From positions 1 through 40,378 of IMG/VR virus record IMGVR_UViG_3300049459_000320: DNA of 40,378 nucleotides. The stretch is one strand, 5' to 3'. Below the pieces are notes generated by a model, which was not told the origin of the DNA, searched no databases, and saw nothing but the letters and a program-made list of their open reading frames with translations. Position numbers and translations under genes: made by a program. The DNA comes from a virus. This document shows positions 1,012 to 37,073 of the stretch, in pieces (positions within the stretch are counted from its first letter, which is position 1; each line of letters begins with the position of its first letter).

Positions 1012-1311
1012 CTACTGACGTTTGCCAGTTGGCGCAGCAGCGCCGCGCCGAGCTGGCCTTGGCCCGACGTCAGGAATGCATTCAGAAATCAGGTCCAGGT
1101 GCACACCAGCATCCGGAAGCCCTCGGCTGTCACATTCATCAGCTGCGCGATGCAGATGATGTCTTAGACGGCTGGTTTGAAGGGCTCCAGATTCAATCAA
1201 GGCCGTTGATAGAGCAATAAAGGCCGATTCTATCGCATAGGCCTCATTGATGACCTTCATTTCTTCGAGCAATTCATCAACTTTCTGTTTAGAGGTTGGG
1301 TTGGATGCCAC
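1012..1311 (-). CDS. Small leftward phage protein, unknown function
   Basis: A 99-residue product opposite to the early operon. A GTG start (1309-1311) is preceded on the minus strand by AGGAAG seven bases upstream, a good ribosome site. The first 75 residues look like a real, mostly helical acidic protein (for example VDELLEEMKVINEAYAIE); the last 20 are Arg/Pro/Ala-rich. I do not recognise a family. A competing plus-strand frame at 993-1220 overlaps the ner stop (ATGA) but has low-complexity content. Because this gene points toward ner, it could be transcribed in the lysogen or act as antisense to early mRNA; both are inference. Confidence 0.55.
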   Translation of the reverse strand: MASNPTSKQKVDELLEEMKVINEAYAIESAFIALSTALIESGALQTSRLRHHLHRAADECDSRGLPDAGVHLDLISECIPDVGPRPARRGAAAPTGKRQ

Positions 1312-1413
1312 GGATGTTCTTCCTGAGTTGTTTTAAAGAGCCTCCATTGTTGTTCAAAAGCTTACGGCACACCACAAGTTTGATTGGAAGCAGCGTTTTA
1401 AGGAATATCCAAA

Positions 1414-1899
1414 ATGAGTACAGCAAAACCTAGGCACGTAAAACGTAGGGCTAACAGCATCAGCGATGCGGTGCAGCTCTCCCTTGACTTTGCCCTCCGC
1501 AAGCACAATCGCGGCACAAAACGCATCGCGGAATTAATGGGCGTGAAGATAGATACGCTCTACAAGTGGTTTTCGCGCGATGGCATGCCCATCAATATGC
1601 TCGGGGCGTTTGAGAACGCCTGTGGAACGATGTACGTCACAGAGTACCTGTGCGCCCAAGCGCACCTTCTAGCCGTCGAAATGCCGACAGGCCGAAAATT
1701 GACGCAAACAACTGTCTTGGAGCTGCAAAAGAGCTTCACGGACACTACCGGCCTCTTAATCGGTTTCCACAGCACTGGTCAAGATGGCGCGGAAACAGCA
1801 CTCGCCCTCACAGGGCTTATGGGAGAGATCGGTTGGCATCGTGCGAACGTAGAACGTTGCACCCAGCCTGACCTTCCGCTTTTCGGAGCTGATGAATGA
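1414..1899 (+). CDS. HTH early regulatory protein
   Basis: A 161-residue protein with a probable helix-turn-helix at about residues 35-55 (RIAELMGVKIDTLYKWF), after a basic N-terminus (KPRHVKRRANS). The rest is helical with no recognised domain. It starts after a good AAGGA ribosome site and its stop overlaps the transposase start in an ATGA, so the two are probably translationally coupled. Its place immediately before gene A is that of a small DNA-binding protein in BcepMu/B3-type early regions. A CII-like role is possible but not shown. Confidence 0.7.
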   Translation: MSTAKPRHVKRRANSISDAVQLSLDFALRKHNRGTKRIAELMGVKIDTLYKWFSRDGMPINMLGAFENACGTMYVTEYLCAQAHLLAVEMPTGRKLTQTTVLELQKSFTDTTGLLIGFHSTGQDGAETALALTGLMGEIGWHRANVERCTQPDLPLFGADE

Positions 1900-3965
1900 A
1901 TCACGCAGCACTAATCGACATAGCAACGGCTGTGGGTATCAGTTATCGCGGCGCTGCCCTGCGCGCAGTACGCGAATCATGGCCATTTCAGGAAGTAACA
2001 GGGTTGGGCGGCAAAAAGCGTCTATATCCGTTGGCTGAACTGCCGAAAGAAGTTGTGAACGCATTGCATATTAAAAAAATGCAGTCACCGGACTCGGAAA
2101 CGCCAACGTCCTTGGTCAGTGCCTTTACTGAACGCACTACCGCTGCAACCTCCTCATCGAAAGAACTCAATCGTCATCAGCTGGACGTCGAGCGCGCTCG
2201 GGACCGCATTTTCCAGTTTGTGGAAGGCTATTCAGGTGGTGTCAAAGCTGCAATTACTTGGTTGAACGATGAGCGTGCCTGCGGCCGTCTTGAAGGTCCA
2301 ATGCTCTGGGCGTATCAGCACGCCTGGGATAAGCCTAGGGCTTTAAATCGGTTGTCCGCTAAGACCTATTACAACTGGGTCAGCGAAAAGCGCGAGCGCG
2401 GCCGCGCCGCGCCGAAGAAGGTACAGGCGGACATGTCCGTCAAGCCCTGGCATGCCCTGGCGGTGGCGCTCAAGCAGCGGCCACAGGGATCGCTGCTGGT
2501 CTGGATCGCGGAAGAAATTGCCAGACAGTGGAACCCGGCCTGGGGAGATCATCCACCGAGCAAGCGCGCCGTGGGCTACTTCTTCTCAGAGAAATTCAGC
2601 GCCCTAGACCAGCTCAAGGGCCGCCATACCGGATCCGCGCTGCGCGTGCACATGGCCTATACACCGCGCACCAACATGGGTATGCGTCCCTGGGACGAGC
2701 TGCACGCCGACGGCTGGAATACTCACTTCACGGCGCCGCATCCTGTTACCGGCGAATTTGTCACCTACGAGGTCTGGCATGCCCACGACGTGGCCACCCG
2801 ATTTGTGCCGCCGTTCAGCATTGGCTTGACTGAAAACTTTGAGGTGATCGCTAAGTGCTTCGAGAACATCATCCGTTGTGGCGGCGTGCCGGCCATCGTA
2901 CAGACCGACAGCACCGCCATAGTGAAGAAAAGCGAGCGCCTGAAAACGAATTCGGCTACTTCGCTGGCCGACCGGGCCGGCTTCACCATCGTACACCCGC
3001 AAGAGGTGGGGAACTCGCAGGCCAATGGCATAGCCGAGAACTTCAACACCTATCTAGACCGCTGTAGCCGCGAACTGGCGACGTACCAAGCCAAAAGCAT
3101 GGACGGCCTGACGTTAAAGCGCGTTAAAAAGCTGACGGGGAAAATGGTTGCGGCGGCGGCCAATGGCGAAATGACGGAGCGCTCCAGGTTGAAACTGGAG
3201 GCAGAGCGCATGGGCAAGGGCAAAGTCTTCGACAGCCACGCCGAGGCGGTCGCCTGGTTAGAGGACAAGCGCCTGAAGTTCAATGACAAGCCGCACAGCA
3301 GTCTGCCGAAGACCCGCGACCATGCGACCGGCCGCATGCGTCATCAAAGCCCGAACGAGGCCATGGCTGCTCATCGCGCCGCTGGCTGGGAAGCGATCAT
3401 GCTCGACGAAACCCACCTGGTCGATATGTTCTGGCACCACGTTCAGAAGAAGGTGATCCGCCAGAGGGTCCGCCCCTACGGGAGGATGGTCTTCGGGGAC
3501 GCGGAGCTCGCCAAGTACGAAGGAAAGCTGGTGGTCGTGGCATACGACGAGAACGACCATAGCAAGGTCTGGATCAAGACCAACGACGGCGCGATTATCT
3601 GCGAGGCGAAGCAAGTGGAAGAAAGCGCCTACCGCACCCAGACCGCAGCCGAAGCGGCGAAAGAGAAACGAGCGCTGGAGAACATCAAGAGGCTGGACAA
3701 AAAAGTCGAGGCGATCCGCGCCCGTGTTCCTGGTCTTGTCATCGAAAACGAGGGTGCTCTCTACGACGAGCCGCGCCAGTTGAACGTCTCCGACTTCGTC
3801 GATGTCGAGTCCCGGCCGGTGCAAGAGAAGGTACTGACGATGGCGGACTTCCTTCCGACGCCGGCGCCGAACCAAGAACGCTCCCTCACCAGGGAGGAAA
3901 CGAATCGCTGGCTGTATGGCGATGCAGTAGATGGCGACGATGAGCAAAAGAGTGCCACCGCCTAG
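1896..3965 (+). CDS. A: MuA-family DDE transposase
   Basis: A 689-residue protein (Mu A is 663) that would bind the phage ends, nick them and join them to target DNA for integration and replicative transposition. The N-terminus (about residues 1-75) matches the MuA-type winged-helix DNA-binding domain. The retroviral-integrase-like core holds the catalytic triad as D272 (ELHADGW), D338 (VQTDSTA) and E381 (NGIAENFN), spaced much as in MuA. A Mu-type C-terminal beta-barrel follows at about 510-580. The charged C-terminus would contact MuB. The start overlaps the previous stop (ATGA). All three acidic residues are present, so the enzyme looks intact. Confidence 0.95.
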   Translation: MNHAALIDIATAVGISYRGAALRAVRESWPFQEVTGLGGKKRLYPLAELPKEVVNALHIKKMQSPDSETPTSLVSAFTERTTAATSSSKELNRHQLDVERARDRIFQFVEGYSGGVKAAITWLNDERACGRLEGPMLWAYQHAWDKPRALNRLSAKTYYNWVSEKRERGRAAPKKVQADMSVKPWHALAVALKQRPQGSLLVWIAEEIARQWNPAWGDHPPSKRAVGYFFSEKFSALDQLKGRHTGSALRVHMAYTPRTNMGMRPWDELHADGWNTHFTAPHPVTGEFVTYEVWHAHDVATRFVPPFSIGLTENFEVIAKCFENIIRCGGVPAIVQTDSTAIVKKSERLKTNSATSLADRAGFTIVHPQEVGNSQANGIAENFNTYLDRCSRELATYQAKSMDGLTLKRVKKLTGKMVAAAANGEMTERSRLKLEAERMGKGKVFDSHAEAVAWLEDKRLKFNDKPHSSLPKTRDHATGRMRHQSPNEAMAAHRAAGWEAIMLDETHLVDMFWHHVQKKVIRQRVRPYGRMVFGDAELAKYEGKLVVVAYDENDHSKVWIKTNDGAIICEAKQVEESAYRTQTAAEAAKEKRALENIKRLDKKVEAIRARVPGLVIENEGALYDEPRQLNVSDFVDVESRPVQEKVLTMADFLPTPAPNQERSLTREETNRWLYGDAVDGDDEQKSATA

Positions 3966-4022
3966 TTACAGCTAGACGGTGGCGGTACTACCAAACCACT
4001 TTTACAACGCAGAGGATCATAC

Positions 4023-4754
4023 ATGAAACATCAATACGTCAAAACCAGCAACCACCAACGCTTCCACGCCGGCATCGCCGCCGTCGAGAATCGCGGCAGC
4101 CCTGAGGCGTGCATCTGCCTGCTGACAGGCGGCCCAGGTACCGGAAAAAGCACGACCGTCGATCACTGGGCATCCGACCGCGATGCGATTTATCTGGAGG
4201 GCATGCCTGGCATGAGCCTGTCATTCCTGCGCGACTACCTGCTGGATCAGACAGGTGTGCCGACCAGCACGAAGTTCAAGGAATACAAGTCGCTCGTCGA
4301 CCACTTCAAGCGGACTAGCCAGCCGATCATTCTGGATGAGGCTCAGCACGGTCTGCCGAACAAGGCAGAGTGCATTGAATACCTCCGACGCATCGCCGAG
4401 CAGGCCAACGTCATCCTGGTGCTGGTGGTACACACGAGCGAACGCTACCGCTTTGCGGAAGACCGCCTGGCGCACATCGCCACCCGCATTTCTGACACAC
4501 CCGTGCTGGCGCCCGCCTCTTTGGAGGATTGCGGCACCTACCTGAACGATCTCTGCGAGGTGAAGGTGGATTCAGCGGTGGTTAAGCAGGTATTCGACCA
4601 ATCGCGCGGCCGGTACCGCCTCATGGCCAACGCAGGTCGTACGTTGGAACTCATCGGCAACAAGCTGAACAAGGCAGCCCTGACCGGCGTTGACGTGAAG
4701 GGCATCAGCCTTTGCGAGGACGCGATGAAGGCGCTGAAGAAGGAGCGCCGCTAA
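4023..4754 (+). CDS. B: MuB-like AAA+ target-DNA activator
   Basis: A 243-residue AAA+ ATPase with Walker A GPGTGKST (residues 37-44) and Walker B PIILDEAQ (D105, E106). MuB coats target DNA as ATP-bound filaments, delivers it to MuA and gives target immunity. This protein is shorter than Mu B (312) and lacks an obvious N-terminal HTH appendage, so it resembles TniB/IstB-type helpers in size. It follows gene A after 57 bp, and its TAA overlaps the next ATG. Confidence 0.92.
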   Translation: MKHQYVKTSNHQRFHAGIAAVENRGSPEACICLLTGGPGTGKSTTVDHWASDRDAIYLEGMPGMSLSFLRDYLLDQTGVPTSTKFKEYKSLVDHFKRTSQPIILDEAQHGLPNKAECIEYLRRIAEQANVILVLVVHTSERYRFAEDRLAHIATRISDTPVLAPASLEDCGTYLNDLCEVKVDSAVVKQVFDQSRGRYRLMANAGRTLELIGNKLNKAALTGVDVKGISLCEDAMKALKKERR

Positions 4755-16486: not shown

Positions 16487-17008
16487 ATGGCAACCACCGT
16501 TGAACTGACCGCCCCAGGTGAAGTGCTGGCCAGCCTGACCAGCAAACTCGGCAACCTGCAGCCGTTCCTGACCGGTTTTGGCGAAGACATGATGGAGCGT
16601 ACAAAGCGCCGCTTCACGACCGCCACAGCGCCGGACGGCAGCCGTTGGGCTCCCAATACGCGGGTGACCATCATGCGTTACCTGAACAGCAGGGGCGCGT
16701 TTTCCGGTAAGACTGGGAAGATATCCGCCAAGGGCCAGTCGCTGGCCATCTCCAAGTTGCCCCTGCAGGGCGCGACCCGCGACCTGGCGCGCCAGTTCTT
16801 CTCCGAAGCCTCCGACGACACCCTAACCATGGGCAACAGCATGGTCTACGCCGCCATGCAGCACTACGGCGGCAAGCGGTCGACCTTTCCCTCCCTATGG
16901 GGCGACATCCCCGCTCGGCCGTATATGCCGCTCACTGCGGCTGGCGACCTGGCCCCGACCGAGGCGGATCTGCTGACCAGCCAGCTGAGTGACTACCTAC
17001 TCGGCTGA
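16487..17008 (+). CDS. G: Virion morphogenesis protein G-like (Mu gp31)
   Basis: A 173-residue member of the phage virion morphogenesis (Mu gpG/gp31) family, with RTKRRFTTATAPDGSRWAPN, the GKTG/GKISAKGQSL motif and MQHYGGKRSTFPSLWGDIPARPYMPL near the end. It acts in head completion and tail joining in Mu. In Mu the protease gene follows; here 2.8 kb of other DNA intervenes. Confidence 0.88.
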   Translation: MATTVELTAPGEVLASLTSKLGNLQPFLTGFGEDMMERTKRRFTTATAPDGSRWAPNTRVTIMRYLNSRGAFSGKTGKISAKGQSLAISKLPLQGATRDLARQFFSEASDDTLTMGNSMVYAAMQHYGGKRSTFPSLWGDIPARPYMPLTAAGDLAPTEADLLTSQLSDYLLG

Positions 17009-17039
17009 GCCACGACCAATTCCTATCGAAAGGACTTAT

Positions 17040-19547
17040 ATGACCAACAAGACAGTAACCCTACCCAATAGACAGCAACTGCCCGGCATGGCGCTCCTGG
17101 ATTCCCAGGGCTTTGTGCTGACACCAGGTTGCGTCACCGACTCCACCGGCAAGTACGCCTTCGATCTGGCGTCCCTGGCGCGGGCGTATACATATGACGG
17201 CGCCAGTAACGTGGCCACCGTCACCTACGGCCCGGACCGCAACGGCCGCAGTGTCCGTGTCACGAAGGTATGGGCCAATGGCTTACTGCAGACCGAATCC
17301 GCTCCCGTTCTGTTCGGTACGGCGGCGGCCGGTCTGGCGTTGTCCGGCGCCGCCGCCGCCGTCGTCGGCACGGCATCAGGCAACATCACGGTCAGTGTTA
17401 CGCCCGCCGGCTCCTACTTCTCGCCATTTACCTTCACTCCAAGCGATAGCGGTGCCGGCGGCACATTCGTGCCTCCGAGCGTAGAGCTGTCGTTTGGATC
17501 AGAGACGGCCACCTTTAAGTACACCCCCGTCAGCGAAGGCGTCAAGCACCTGACTGGTACGGTGGACCAAGGCGGGTTGCCGGCGCCGGCAATATTTGAC
17601 CTGACTGCCAGCGCCCAGGGCAAGGCCGCTGCCCCGGCCCAGGTCGTCGCGACCGCCAGCGGTACCAGCGTGACACTGACGTGGCCGCTTGTGCCGGCAG
17701 CGAACAACGGCGGCACCCCGGTGCGAAATTACCTGGTAAAGCTTTCGGATGGTTCAGCGCAGCTCGTCCCACCCAATGCCGTGAACTGGACGTTCAGGGA
17801 TGTTAAAGCCGGCGTAGCGGTCACCGGCATCGTAGCAGCGGTAACGGATACCGGCGTCGGGACAGCCGCGAAATCGACGGCAGTTACGCCTGGGGACGGT
17901 CCTGTTGGGCCTATCGCTCCCCCGCGTGTACCGGTCTCAGTGCGGACCAGGTTGAATATGACCAGCGGCGCCCATGCAGTGAACCTGGAGCATGTATGCC
18001 ACCGGGTTCGGCAGAAGTCCAACGCGGTCGGAACCAACGTCGTGGCTGAGTTTGTTAACGGATATGTGGTATCCACTGGCGCCAGCGGCTTGCCTGACCT
18101 GGAGCGCGGTGTCGGCAATGCAGTCCAGTATATGTGGTCGTTTGTTACGGGGTTTAACGGGGCAAATGCCTTGAACTTGGCGGCACTCGGCGGCATCGTC
18201 CGGCGGCTGAAGTTCCTCGGCATGCTCAATGATCCTGCCTTTGTCGCTGCCGGCGGCGCCGTCAGCGCCGATGGCTATACGATCACGGTTCCAGATGGTT
18301 TCAAGTACCGCAACGACCCGATTACGGACTGGAACATCGTTAAGGGCGAGGTGTATTACTCCCTGGGCGACTTGTACTGCGCTGCCGGCCTGCGCACGCC
18401 GCGCAATGTCACTTCGCATAGCGTGGCCGTCGGGGACGCATTCTGGAACAGTGCCACCGGCATCGTGTCGGGCCGCCAGTTGGTTGCATCGGCGGACTGG
18501 AGCGGAACCACCGCCGCGTCGATCAACCCTTACGGTGCGCTGGCCGGACCACTGTCGGTTTGGGCCGATGGTGTACCAGGTACGGTGGTCTTTGGCGTTG
18601 CCGGCGATTCGATCATCGCGGAAGTTACCGGATCGGCCGCTCTTGCCCTTACCCCGTACGACTTGGGCGACGACGACGGATGCCAGAACTTCGCCAAGCG
18701 CGCGCTCAACGCGCTGGGCTTGCCTTTCGTCTGCGTCGCGGTCTCGGGCTCCAACGTTCGCGACCTCCGGGACTTCCAACCAGGTGCGCTACGCGGCTAC
18801 TACCTCCAGTGGTGCGATGTGATCATTACCAATGCGCTCAACAACGACCGGGCGACCGGCCGCGCGTATAACTCCGCTAGCGGTTTGGGTACGCTGTACG
18901 CCTTCGACAACGACTGGCTGCGCTCCAAGGGCAAGCCAGGTTGCAAGATCATCCGTGTGACCTCGCCACCGGCAACCTTCTCGACAGTGGTGATCACTTC
19001 GTTAACCTCCGTCGGCACGAAAGCGACGGCGATCAGCCCTACGGGAACCATGACCGAGGGGCAGATCGTCACCATTGCCGGCGCGGCGAACTTGGTCGGG
19101 TACAACGTGGTGAACGCTGCGGTGCATATCATCGATGGCAATAGTTTCAGCTTCGATATCCCTGACCTGGGCGGCGTCGCGGCGACGACGACCACGGCGC
19201 TCACCTGGTCGGATGGCTGGGCGACCCTGGCCAACCAAACGTTCAAGAACGGCGACGCGACATGGCCATCAGGCGGGCCGTCGAGCTTGGTGGGCGGCCA
19301 GTACGAGCTGCGCGACAAGATCATGCGCCAAGGCACCTATGTAAACCAGCCGTATGGCGGCCCAGGCGAGTGTGACGCCGGCTACGACTATTGCTCAGTG
19401 ATATGGGATGGCGCGGGCCGCTACAAGGTCAATGGCACTCGCTACTATTTGAGCGATGATGGCACCCACCAGAAGATTGTCGGCGAGCTGGCGGCGGCGG
19501 TCGACTTCCAGCAGAAACTGTCGGCGATCCTGGAACAGTGGCATTAA
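17040..19547 (+). CDS. Ig/FnIII and SGNH-hydrolase surface protein
   Basis: An 835-residue protein. Start 17040 is chosen for its GAAAGGA site; a GTG at 16989 in frame overlaps G. Order: N-terminal beta-rich segment (1-90), Ig-like part (about 95-185), fibronectin-III-like domain (about 190-275), then an SGNH/GDSL hydrolase fold. Catalytic blocks are visible: GDS with S524, VSGSN (block II), TNALNNDR (block III) and DDGTH giving D807 and H810. A small beta insert (about 650-725) splits the hydrolase. Such enzymes deacetylate or de-esterify glycans, so surface-polysaccharide modification by the virion is a reasonable inference. There is no signal peptide. It lies between G and the protease, where Mu has no gene, so it looks like an added module; capsid decoration or tail-fibre function are both possible. 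Confidence 0.8.
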   Translation: MTNKTVTLPNRQQLPGMALLDSQGFVLTPGCVTDSTGKYAFDLASLARAYTYDGASNVATVTYGPDRNGRSVRVTKVWANGLLQTESAPVLFGTAAAGLALSGAAAAVVGTASGNITVSVTPAGSYFSPFTFTPSDSGAGGTFVPPSVELSFGSETATFKYTPVSEGVKHLTGTVDQGGLPAPAIFDLTASAQGKAAAPAQVVATASGTSVTLTWPLVPAANNGGTPVRNYLVKLSDGSAQLVPPNAVNWTFRDVKAGVAVTGIVAAVTDTGVGTAAKSTAVTPGDGPVGPIAPPRVPVSVRTRLNMTSGAHAVNLEHVCHRVRQKSNAVGTNVVAEFVNGYVVSTGASGLPDLERGVGNAVQYMWSFVTGFNGANALNLAALGGIVRRLKFLGMLNDPAFVAAGGAVSADGYTITVPDGFKYRNDPITDWNIVKGEVYYSLGDLYCAAGLRTPRNVTSHSVAVGDAFWNSATGIVSGRQLVASADWSGTTAASINPYGALAGPLSVWADGVPGTVVFGVAGDSIIAEVTGSAALALTPYDLGDDDGCQNFAKRALNALGLPFVCVAVSGSNVRDLRDFQPGALRGYYLQWCDVIITNALNNDRATGRAYNSASGLGTLYAFDNDWLRSKGKPGCKIIRVTSPPATFSTVVITSLTSVGTKATAISPTGTMTEGQIVTIAGAANLVGYNVVNAAVHIIDGNSFSFDIPDLGGVAATTTTALTWSDGWATLANQTFKNGDATWPSGGPSSLVGGQYELRDKIMRQGTYVNQPYGGPGECDAGYDYCSVIWDGAGRYKVNGTRYYLSDDGTHQKIVGELAAAVDFQQKLSAILEQWH

Positions 19548-19559
19548 TTAGTTAGCCAG

Positions 19560-19591
19560 GTGAATACGCCGCCCGCCGGCGGCGTATTCAC
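19560..19591. terminator. Strong hairpin after the SGNH gene
   Basis: Arms GTGAATACGCCGCC (19560-19573) and GGCGGCGTATTCAC (19578-19591) pair perfectly over 14 bp with a 4-base CGCC loop. No T-run follows directly; an A8 run occurs at 19603-19610. It probably limits transcription or protects the 3' end of the inserted gene's mRNA. The rest of 19548-19834 holds no gene; GTGCCG (19611-19616) is matched by CGGCAC further on, giving weak additional pairing. Confidence 0.6.
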
Positions 19592-19834
19592 CCCCGACCG
19601 ACAAAAAAAAGTGCCGTTCGGAACAAATGCGTAGAAGCCAGTTTTAGACATTAAAATCACCCCACCCGGCACATCGCCATACCCGAATCGCGAAAGCGGC
19701 TATTAACGGGGCTTTAACGGCCTTGTCGGGGATTCCAGTTAGAAAGATAGGCTGCACAATCCAGCCCAAGGCGGCAAATCACTGCTGACCTCTGCCAGTC
19801 TTACTTCCTCGCGCGCGCCTGACATCATGGCCGC

Positions 19835-20962
19835 ATGTCAAAAGCCGCCCCACAAAACCAAACTCACGTCGCCGCCCTGGTGGGCATCGCTGCGTGCACC
19901 GCCATTGTGGTGGGCAGCACAAAGATCCAGCTCACACCGGCCGGCATTTTCCGTGGCATCGACGGCCGGCCAGCGAATGCGCCGTACTGGTATATCGACG
20001 GTGCGCTGGCTGAACCCTTGATTGCGGCCGCCAGCGCCCGCGCCAACGACTACGTCCTGGACTACGACCACCAGACCCTGCGCGCCGAGAAGAACGGTCA
20101 GCCGGCGCCGGCCGCTGGCTGGTTCAAAAAGCTGGAGTGGATCGAGGGCGAAGGTCTGTTTGGCGTCGACGTCGAGTGGACTGCAGCCGCCCAGGCGGCC
20201 ATCGACGCCAAGGAGTACCGCTACATCTCCCCGGTCATCGCCTACGACAAGGCCGGCAACGTCACAGGCCTCTTGATGGCGGCCATCACCAACTACGCAG
20301 CGATTGACGGCATGGACGAGATCATGCTCGCCGCCGCCAGCGCCCAGTACAACCTTTCCCACACCGCTGCACTTTCCCAGGAGTTACCCAACATGGAAGC
20401 ATTGCTCGAACAACTTCGCTGGATGCTGAATTTACCGGTGGCCAGCACCCCCGAAGACATCCTCACCAACCTGACCAAGCTGGCCGACATGATCAAGTCC
20501 GACCAGGGCGATGTCGCCGCTGCGAGCTGCGACCTGGTAGGCATGTTCACCGCCCAGCGCAGCATGATCGCCAGTCTGAGCGCCGCTCCAGCTACCCCGG
20601 ACCCGGCCAAATTCATCGCCATCGGCACGCTCACCGAGCTGCAGACCAAGTACGCGGCGCTGTCTGCCGAGCTGAACACCACTCGCCTGGACGAGCTCAT
20701 TACCGGTGCGCTGAAGGAGAACCGCCTGCTGCCATCGATGGAGTCCTGGGCGCGCGATTTCGGCACCAAGGATATCGCCGCGCTGTCGGGGTACCTGAAG
20801 AATGCACCGGTCATGCCGGCGCTGGCCGGCCTGCAGAGCAATACCGTGGATACGGGGGCCGGCGTGGCTGGTTTGACTGAAAGCCAGGCTGCGCTGTGCG
20901 CAGCCATGGGCGTCAGCACGGAGGACTTCCTGAAGACCCTGAAAGCCGAGACGCCGGCCTAA
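19835..20962 (+). CDS. I: Prohead protease/scaffold, Mu I-like (gp32)
   Basis: A 375-residue Mu-like I protein. The N-terminal serine-protease-type domain (about 1-180) has characteristic segments: GIFRGIDGRPANAPYWYIDG, NDYVLDYDHQTLRAEKNGQP and YRYISPVIAYDKAGNVTGLL. The C-terminal half is the helical scaffold (Mu Z) part. The protease matures the prohead and removes scaffold. The ATG has no strong ribosome site and follows a 287-bp spacer, unlike the coupled genes around it, which suggests that an upstream insertion disturbed the original arrangement. Confidence 0.9.
   Translation: MSKAAPQNQTHVAALVGIAACTAIVVGSTKIQLTPAGIFRGIDGRPANAPYWYIDGALAEPLIAAASARANDYVLDYDHQTLRAEKNGQPAPAAGWFKKLEWIEGEGLFGVDVEWTAAAQAAIDAKEYRYISPVIAYDKAGNVTGLLMAAITNYAAIDGMDEIMLAAASAQYNLSHTAALSQELPNMEALLEQLRWMLNLPVASTPEDILTNLTKLADMIKSDQGDVAAASCDLVGMFTAQRSMIASLSAAPATPDPAKFIAIGTLTELQTKYAALSAELNTTRLDELITGALKENRLLPSMESWARDFGTKDIAALSGYLKNAPVMPALAGLQSNTVDTGAGVAGLTESQAALCAAMGVSTEDFLKTLKAETPA
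20393..20962 (+). CDS. Z: Internal start: scaffold protein, Z-like
   Basis: Within the I frame, ATG 20393 (residue 187) is preceded by AGGAG (20379-20383) at nine-base spacing, better than the site of the full-length gene. Translation from here gives a 189-residue helical protein (EALLEQLRWMLNLP onward). Mu makes its scaffold Z by the same nested-gene arrangement. Sequence supports the start; production is inferred. Confidence 0.65.
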   Translation: MEALLEQLRWMLNLPVASTPEDILTNLTKLADMIKSDQGDVAAASCDLVGMFTAQRSMIASLSAAPATPDPAKFIAIGTLTELQTKYAALSAELNTTRLDELITGALKENRLLPSMESWARDFGTKDIAALSGYLKNAPVMPALAGLQSNTVDTGAGVAGLTESQAALCAAMGVSTEDFLKTLKAETPA

Positions 20963-21447: not shown

Positions 21448-22494
21448 ATGAAACGCATTCTTATTATTGGCAGTGCCGTGATCGCCGGCTTGGCAGCGGT
21501 GGCGGGGGCATGGGCAGCGCCCGTTCCCGAACTCCATGACGTCGCACCAGGTAGCTTCCTGGCCGCCGGCATGCTGGTGAACAAGGAAAACCTCTCCGCG
21601 CTGTTTATCAGCCTGAAGACGAGCTTCAACAATGCGTTCGCCGCCGCCCCTACCGTCTGGAAGCGGATCGCCATGCTGGTGCCATCGACCTCCGGCCAGA
21701 ATGACTACGCCTGGCTGAGCAAGTTTCCTCGCATGCGCCGCTGGATCGGCGAGAAGAACATCAAGAACCTGGCGGGCGCCAAGTACACCATCGTCAACGA
21801 CGACTGGGAAGCCACGGTCGCAGTGAATCGCAACGATATCGAAGACGACAACCTGGGTATCTATGGCCCGCAGGCGCAGATGGCCGGCGAGTCCGCCGCC
21901 CAGCTGCCCGACGAAATCGTCATCGAGCTGGCAAATGGCGCTTTCACAAACAAATGCTTTGATGGCAAGCCATTTTGCGCCTCCAACCATCCAAGCACGG
22001 ACGCGGCCGGGAAGAAAATTGCGTCTTCCAACATGTTCGGTGTACCGCTGTCGGCGGCAAACGCGGTGGCGGCGGCGGCAAGCTACGGCGCAGCGCGTAT
22101 CGCAATGCGCAAACAATTGGACGACGAAGGCCGTCCGTTGAACATCACACCGGACGTGCTGCTCGTTCCGGTTGCCCTGGGGGACATTGCCCGCGCGCTG
22201 ATGAACAACGACCTGCTGGGCGACAAAGACCAAAACCCGTACAAAGGCACCGCCGAGGTGATCGAAGACGCACGCCTGACGTCCGACACTGCCTGGTTCC
22301 TGCTCGACACGACCAAACCGGTCAAGCCATTTATCTACCAGGAGCGTAAGAAACCTGGCCTGGTACAGCAAACCGATCCGCAAGCCGAAGGCGTGTTCAA
22401 GCTGAAGGAATTCCTGTTCGGTGCCGAAGCCCGCGCGGCCGGCGGCTATGGCTTCTGGCAACTGGCCTTCGGCTCGACCGGCGCAGGCGCCTGA
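21448..22494 (+). CDS. T: Major capsid protein, Mu T-like, with leader
   Basis: A 348-residue Mu gpT-like major head subunit. From residue 42 it matches the usual start (MLVNKENLSALFISLKTSF) and core (AMLVPSTSGQNDYAWLSKFP, DDWEATVAVNRNDIEDDNLG, NHPSTDAAGKK). Residues 1-41 are extra: KR, a 17-residue hydrophobic stretch and an AWA-AP signal-peptidase-like site. ATG 21448 has AGGA at 21437-21440; the alternative ATG 21571 has no ribosome site. The leader may be a cleaved or retained head propeptide rather than a true export signal. Capsid identity is firm, the leader's role is unknown. Confidence 0.9.
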   Translation: MKRILIIGSAVIAGLAAVAGAWAAPVPELHDVAPGSFLAAGMLVNKENLSALFISLKTSFNNAFAAAPTVWKRIAMLVPSTSGQNDYAWLSKFPRMRRWIGEKNIKNLAGAKYTIVNDDWEATVAVNRNDIEDDNLGIYGPQAQMAGESAAQLPDEIVIELANGAFTNKCFDGKPFCASNHPSTDAAGKKIASSNMFGVPLSAANAVAAAASYGAARIAMRKQLDDEGRPLNITPDVLLVPVALGDIARALMNNDLLGDKDQNPYKGTAEVIEDARLTSDTAWFLLDTTKPVKPFIYQERKKPGLVQQTDPQAEGVFKLKEFLFGAEARAAGGYGFWQLAFGSTGAGA

Positions 22495-36284: not shown

Positions 36285-37073
36285 ATGGCAACACCAATAA
36301 TTCCCTGGATCGGCGGCAAGCGACGCCTGGCTGATCGCCTAATCCCGCAGTTCCCGCCTCATACCTGCTACGTCGAGGTGTTTGCCGGTGGCGCCGCGTT
36401 GTTCTTTATGCGGCCGCCGGCAAAGGTCGAGGTGCTCAATGACATCAACGGCGACCTGGTGTGTTTGTACCGCGTTGTTCAGCACCATCTGGAGGAATTC
36501 GTCCGCCAGTTCAAGTGGGCACTGTCCAGCCGCCAAGTCTTCAAATGGATGCAGGAGACGCGGCCGGAAACGCTCACCGATATCCAGCGCGCCGCGCGCT
36601 TCTTTTACCTGCAGCAGCAAGCGTATGGCGCCAAGGTGGAAGGCCAAACGTGGGGAACTGCGACCACGGCGCCACCAATCAACCTGCTGCGCATCGAGGA
36701 GAATTTATCAGCAGCGCACCTGCGGTTGGCCAACGCTTTTGTGGAGAAGCTGGAATGGTTCGATTGCATCCAGCGCTATGACCGCGAGCACACATTGTTC
36801 TACTTGGACCCGCCATACTGGGAGACGGAGGGCTACGGTGTTGACTTTGAGTTTGCCCAGTACGAGCGGATGGCTGACATGATGTCCACGATGAAGGGAA
36901 AGGCCATTCTCAGCCTGAACGACCATCCTGATATCCGTCGGGTGTTCGCCCGCTTCCAGATGGACTCTACCGACATCCAGTATACCGTTGGCGGTGGTGG
37001 TAAGGGCGTCGATAGGAAGGAGTTAATCATCTACAGTTGGGACAGGGCGGCCGATCCGGTAGGACTATTCTGA
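36285..37073 (+). CDS. DNA adenine methyltransferase (D12/Dam class)
   Basis: A 262-residue N6-adenine methyltransferase. Motif I variant IPWIGGKRRL (5-14), AdoMet-binding VEVFAGGAALFF (30-41) and the catalytic DPPY at residues 175-178 are all present, as is SLNDHPDIRR in the later motif. It probably methylates phage DNA to protect it from host restriction. Location at the right end matches that of Mu mom, though the enzyme is unrelated to Mom. Own AAGG ribosome site, separate from the late operon. Target sequence cannot be read from the protein. Confidence 0.93.
   Translation: MATPIIPWIGGKRRLADRLIPQFPPHTCYVEVFAGGAALFFMRPPAKVEVLNDINGDLVCLYRVVQHHLEEFVRQFKWALSSRQVFKWMQETRPETLTDIQRAARFFYLQQQAYGAKVEGQTWGTATTAPPINLLRIEENLSAAHLRLANAFVEKLEWFDCIQRYDREHTLFYLDPPYWETEGYGVDFEFAQYERMADMMSTMKGKAILSLNDHPDIRRVFARFQMDSTDIQYTVGGGGKGVDRKELIIYSWDRAADPVGLF

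Follow-up and report, generated by a model that had tools for sequence, protein, structure and literature searches.

What does a Mu-like phage gain from a gene of 835 codons placed in the middle of its head operon, and where would the product of that gene act? The gene lies in the window, by which we mean the whole stretch of DNA analysed (40,378 nucleotides, positions 1 to 40,378 of the IMG/VR virus record IMGVR_UViG_3300049459_000320). A preliminary description of this DNA had proposed a surface protein with an SGNH hydrolase domain, carried by a self-contained insertion. Here we ask what the gene encodes, how it is placed among its relatives, and whether its product is better understood as part of the head or neck, as part of the tail, or as a protein made for the host cell.

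Results

An accessory gene in a known variable interval

The 835-codon reading frame at 17040-19547 (+ strand, ATG start) is real, homologues of its product were found, and its placement between gene G and the head protease, as first described, is confirmed by the ORF coordinates and by the Pfam and PHROG matches of the flanking genes. The left edge of this slot is G, the tail completion or Neck1 gene (16487-17008, +; Pfam Phage_tail_S, 2.7e-13; phrog_26, 1.3e-22), and the right edge is the Mu I-like head maturation protease (19835-20962, +; Pfam Mu-like_Pro, 4.6e-98), within a Mu-type head operon that runs TerL, portal, F, G, the 835-codon gene, protease, small virion protein and major head protein, with a tape-measure gene of 1878 codons further downstream. 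Separately, the gpT frame carries an in-frame extension (window 21448-21571), starting MKRILIIGSAVIAGLAAVAGAWA ahead of the usual head-protein start, which resembles a signal or membrane peptide. The 835-codon gene begins 31 bp past the G stop codon, behind a ribosome-binding site (GAAAGGA, 17028-17034, +), and its GC content of 62.4% does not deviate from the 61.6-66.1% of TerL, portal, F, G and protease; no sigma-70-like promoter site was found for it, and its product has no signal-like N-terminus. With no promoter-like site, a start this close behind G and the composition of its neighbours, the gene does not look like a classical self-expressed moron, the class to which it had been likened.

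Profiles for G and the protease located 124 G-to-protease intervals, a set that includes the window and excludes the Mu-like contig L212 discussed below. Their lengths are 320 bp or less in 79 cases (about 70-320 bp), 321-600 bp in 9 and more than 600 bp in 36, the slot of the window being the longest of the 124 at 2.8 kb. Many of the 36 long slots hold diverse cargo ORFs, encoding an anti-CRISPR, a Dam-type methylase, a ParA-like ATPase or proteins without family; the slot of JBD5 is annotated with AcrE1, AcrF3 and a winged-helix protein, while that of H70 contains accessory ORFs and that of a Citrobacter plasmid prophage a holin. In Pseudomonas Mu-like phages (Casadabanvirus) a variable region termed RGP G carries anti-CRISPR genes (PMC4378225), and from the JBD5 and H70 records we infer that RGP G is this same G-protease interval. 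The earlier statement that Mu-type order has no gene here therefore holds for the 79 short slots and fails for the 36 longer ones, many of them with cargo, and the slot is not novel, being an already known plasticity hot spot. What stands is the accessory nature of the insertion: the place of the 835-codon gene is empty or otherwise filled in relatives, and instead of a homologue in every related operon we find mostly empty slots and others with unrelated cargo. The window phage has a Dam-type methylase of its own at 36285-37073, with 71-75% DNA and 66-69% protein identity to the slot methylase of three relatives (L095, L008 and L092); the cargo that fills the slot of those relatives occupies another place in the window phage, near its right end.

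The hairpin, the spacer and a conserved element ahead of the protease

Directly 3' of the insert lies a hairpin with a 15-bp perfect stem (19559-19592, +; -32.9 kcal/mol, z -6), which is followed by no T-run and does not score as an intrinsic terminator, and which we rejected as a canonical terminator on account of the absent T-run. The spacer between the gene and the protease (19548-19834) measures 287 bp, the same size as the entire empty slot in relatives, and holds a conserved element; as its sequence is conserved in relatives, it was rejected as part of the insert. The strong hairpin and the spacer length noted in the preliminary description are thus correct, and the spacer is ordinary among relatives.

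About 145 bp immediately 5' of the protease are conserved among relatives, and the promoter/operator-like element delimited there in the window (19693-19834, +) is 75% identical to its counterpart in L095. This element contains an imperfect inverted repeat, TGCTGACCTCTGCCA (19783-19797, +), common to the window and six close relatives, the repeat TGCTGAC-N-G(T/C)CA occurring in these 7 of the 124 slots against an expectation of 0.006 per slot. Coliphage Mu has a late promoter ahead of gene I, so this conserved element with its inverted repeat is likely to act on the protease block as a promoter or operator. The insert would then appear to separate two units of transcription.

A divergent SGNH hydrolase domain

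Direct homologue searches with the whole 835-residue protein gave no match in phages, plasmids, IMG/VR or GTDB genomes. The first distant homologues came from a tblastn search within a single bacterial family, the one that includes a Janthinobacterium relative, represented by about 390 genomes; these were drawn from a larger group, and the homologue set was then extended in IMG/VR. A class-wide profile search of 369 genomes, run without a positive control, was empty, and a PDB sequence search with the protein returned spurious matches only. No GDSL or SGNH model in Pfam, NCBIfam or PHROGs scored above cut-off on the protein, a result that is not decisive for SGNH membership because divergent members are often missed.

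The SGNH domain spans residues 505-835 (18552-19544, +). Ser524, the predicted catalytic serine (codon 18609-18611, +), lies in VAGDSII, with the GDS of block I, and Asp807 and His810 lie in SDDGTH, the DxxH of block V (codons 19458-19469, +), at the positions first reported for them. An alignment of five homologues shows no variation at Ser524, at the oxyanion-hole positions Gly570 (block II) and Asn602 (block III) or at the pair Thr809-His810, whereas position 807 is occupied by Asp or, in one homologue, by Glu. A profile of the domain aligned with phage GDSL proteins, which themselves match Pfam Lipase_GDSL_2 or Lipase_GDSL, across blocks I, II and III at an hhalign probability of 97.2% (E 3e-11), and an unrelated profile used as a negative control reached 0.05%. 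Alignment with homologues also delimits a private insertion in the domain (residues about 643-715, window about 18966-19184, +); an SGNH protein from a Rhizobium phage (L205, 2966-4738) has a similar insertion, and the closer homologues lack it.

The model of the full-length protein, built on a five-row alignment, had a pLDDT of 39 and was kept out of the fold search. To look for the flavodoxin-like alpha/beta/alpha fold of the SGNH superfamily we used the compact domain of a homologue rather than the 835-residue protein itself (pTM 0.60, pLDDT 54). Foldseek placed rhamnogalacturonan acetylesterase (3c1u and 1deo) at ranks 1 and 4 among the PDB matches of this homologue domain (E 0.02-0.03, short of the usual confidence), all of which have E > 0.001 and include unrelated folds at top ranks between the acetylesterases, and in a viral structure library a mycobacteriophage SGNH esterase came first (E 5e-4). 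Taken together, motifs, profile and homologue model support the assignment of the C-terminal 330 residues to a divergent SGNH hydrolase. The preliminary description had placed Ser524, Asp807 and His810 in SGNH blocks and had recommended a profile or fold comparison; its proposal is borne out by position, by conservation in distant homologues and by the match to GDSL proteins, with SGNH esterases among the matches of the homologue model.

Homologues of the SGNH half are encoded between portal and scaffold genes (L181), after a coat gene (L182), beside HNH and terminase genes (L180 and L188) and next to lysis genes (L187). A weakly similar SGNH protein of a Rhizobium phage is annotated directly ahead of a prohead core gene.

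A modular N-terminal half with a two-gene counterpart

Ahead of the SGNH domain, the protein comprises an N-terminal module (residues 1-92; 17040-17315, +), which exists as a separate protein of 80-102 residues in other phages, a beta-rich, possibly Ig-like part (residues 93-195; 17316-17624, +), an FN3-like domain (residues 198-279; 17631-17876, +) and a conserved beta-rich region visible in homologue alignments (residues 295-504; 17922-18551, +). The modular layout proposed at the outset is thereby upheld, while its labels fare less well: the Pfam fn3 match is sub-threshold (E 0.0028; 18.3 bits against a cut-off of 25), and no library contains an Ig model that matches the protein, the Ig label having no support beyond the beta-rich stretch of a low-confidence structure model.

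A search with the N-terminal module led to L212 (IMG/VR contig 3300047472_000153), a Mu-like phage whose G and protease are 54% and 58% identical to those of the window phage and whose slot measures about 3.5 kb. The first slot gene begins about 28 bp after G and encodes a 306-residue adaptor, 54% identical to residues 1-285 of the 835-residue protein (blastp, E 4e-85), a stretch that includes the beta-rich part. The second encodes a separate protein of 581 residues, with Lipase_GDSL_2 at residues 401-564 (E 3.7e-8) and an N-terminus of tail-fibre type (phrog_8469, 3.7e-17), and is followed by a gene for a 185-residue protein. Then come a hairpin with a T-run, at the place equivalent to that of the window hairpin, and the conserved element ahead of the protease. 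Beyond the motif, the SGNH sequence of L212 has no detectable relation to that of the 835-residue protein. With adaptor and SGNH enzyme as two genes in L212, the window gene would thus be a fused form of that pair, bearing a different SGNH sequence. A search for homologues at the same place, also advised in the preliminary description, is in this way answered by an adaptor homologue and a separate SGNH gene in the same slot.

The N-terminal module in other phages

The N-terminal module, about 90 residues long, was found in nine contigs, both Mu-like ones (the window and L212) included, and in all nine its gene lies among or close to those for head, neck, coat or terminase proteins; among these nine it was not met inside a tail-fibre operon. 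It follows the portal and precedes the head protease in L207-L209, stands ahead of a fused protease-coat gene in L210, ahead of a gene for Neck1 or for a minor tail protein, with TerL next, in L211 and L170/L183, and after a coat gene in L213. The last contig also encodes, two genes after the module and the major head gene, a protein with an M14 carboxypeptidase-like domain and Kelch repeats (1200-4091).

For the stand-alone module, an ATGA overlap with the gene that follows was seen in all six of the cases L170 and L207-L211. The six coupled partner proteins share an N-terminal motif (about FRQLLAKxGhPR) that recurs in 1 of 2094 background ORFs, a count to be read as descriptive, the motif having been derived from the same six proteins. 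Their bodies include an FAD oxidoreductase, an alpha/beta hydrolase, an SGNH protein and others without family. L207-L209 have portals that are 88-89% identical, yet they encode unrelated enzymes directly behind the module, namely the FAD oxidoreductase (L207, 7306-9426), the alpha/beta hydrolase (L208, 7303-8829) and the SGNH protein (L209, 2233-3624), the last of which matches a tail family. As a tentative and rather speculative model of this pattern, the module may be an unrecognised, portable mount for exchangeable enzymes on phage particles, in which a base of about 90 residues, its gene placed with those for head and packaging in phages that are otherwise unrelated, would be paired with an ATGA-overlapping partner made of a shared N-terminal peptide and an exchangeable body, the 835-residue protein representing the fused form.

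Discussion

Judging from sequence, we consider it probable that the 835-residue protein is a late, virion-associated fusion of an adaptor and an active esterase, with a lean towards the head or neck; this estimate applies to a virion-borne active esterase with that lean, and the competing tail-fibre explanation shares the enzyme and differs in its location. The gene would be late accessory cargo, with a ribosome-binding site of its own for translation from the late transcript ending with G; this transcript may stop at the 19559-19592 hairpin, and the conserved pre-protease element would restart expression, or control it, for the block behind. Through its adaptor half (N-terminal module, beta-rich part and FN3-like part) the protein is predicted to attach to the particle, and through its esterase half to strip acyl groups, most probably acetyl, off capsule, LPS or exopolysaccharide, a deacylation that may help the particle to bind to, or pass through, the surface glycan. 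The promoter role, virion attachment, activity and substrate are what we infer. Counting against this reading are the SGNH homologue next to lysis genes, the intracellular proteins among the slot cargo of relatives, the lack of a library match to SGNH for the protein itself, the low pLDDT of the full-length model, the mediocre homologue model and an L212 enzyme with no detectable relation beyond the motif.

It is gene neighbourhood that leans towards the head or neck, and, given the tail-fibre-like N-terminus of the L212 SGNH protein, we do not take the head-operon position as proof that the product is in the head. That N-terminus, together with the tail location of known virion SGNH enzymes, makes the tail a serious rival: the protein could be a tail fibre that binds the receptor, or an enzyme of the tail tip, encoded in the head operon by chance and joining the tail as other SGNH fibres do. 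Virion SGNH enzymes are known as tail fibres or spikes in those parts of the literature drawn on here (PMC13123978; PMC11654681), and the match of the L209 SGNH protein to a tail family points the same way; the nine-of-nine association of the N-terminal module with head, neck, coat or terminase genes, with none met in a tail-fibre operon, and an 835-residue protein devoid of a tail-fibre N-terminus argue against it, and we regard a tail location as the less probable, at perhaps a modest fraction of the likelihood. A greater departure would be an enzyme of lysogenic conversion or superinfection, made inside the cell to alter the host surface and forming no part of the particle, as might be expected of a slot that is a hot spot for non-structural cargo (anti-CRISPRs, Dam methylases, ParA-like proteins). 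We think this improbable for a protein that has neither a signal peptide-like N-terminus nor a promoter-like site, starts 31 bp behind G and shares its adaptor modules with proteins encoded among the virion genes of many phages. Those modules, shared with virion neighbourhoods, and the lack of resemblance between the protein and other slot cargo also led us to reject an anti-defence role. An SGNH fold kept for glycan binding, without cleavage, would fit the divergence of the domain, its 70-residue insertion and the block V Asp replaced by Glu in one homologue; with the four block residues and DxxH intact here, and Ser, Gly, Asn and His invariant across the family, it too has little likelihood.

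Neither the slot nor the enzyme class is new, and virion esterases are an idea already known; in the literature searched we found no description of the fused adaptor or of the recurring N-terminal module. If an adaptor-esterase is indeed carried by the particle, Mu-like phages use the anti-CRISPR slot of their Pseudomonas relatives for particle-exterior enzymes, in a pairing of base and enzyme near head or neck, and the module may serve as a marker for further virion enzymes missed by family libraries. The RGP G locus of Casadabanvirus (PMC4378225) has the same G (Neck1)-protease interval with variable accessory genes, but its ORFs are short, anti-CRISPRs and a DNA-binding protein among their products, where the window has one modular protein of 835 residues; the window phage is related to Burkholderiales prophages, whereas RGP G belongs to Pseudomonas phages. 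L212 shares the slot and the order of an adaptor followed by an SGNH-family gene, and differs in having two genes plus a third, with an unrelated SGNH sequence behind a tail-fibre N-terminus. SGNH tail fibres and deacetylases (G7C gp63.1; Klebsiella prophage receptor-binding enzymes, PMC13123978) are likewise large, modular phage proteins with an SGNH domain, for proposed de-O-acetylation of a host surface glycan; the 835-residue protein differs from them in its N-terminal half and its head-operon position, and no sequence relation between it and a characterised one was detected in these searches. Were the protein on the tail, the finding would be the less unusual one of an SGNH fibre that has been relocated. 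Among decoration proteins, Hoc (T4), pb10 (T5) and gp17 (N4) (PMC7602432) are like it in its possible Ig-like domains, accessory nature and putative role in host or glycan adhesion, but as described have no enzyme domain, while the 835-residue protein has an SGNH domain and a putative binding to the capsid. A review of Ig-type capsid decoration proteins mentions no hydrolase or esterase, describing proteins that bind and do not cut (PMC7602432), and against that background a capsid- or neck-mounted enzyme would be a genuine addition.
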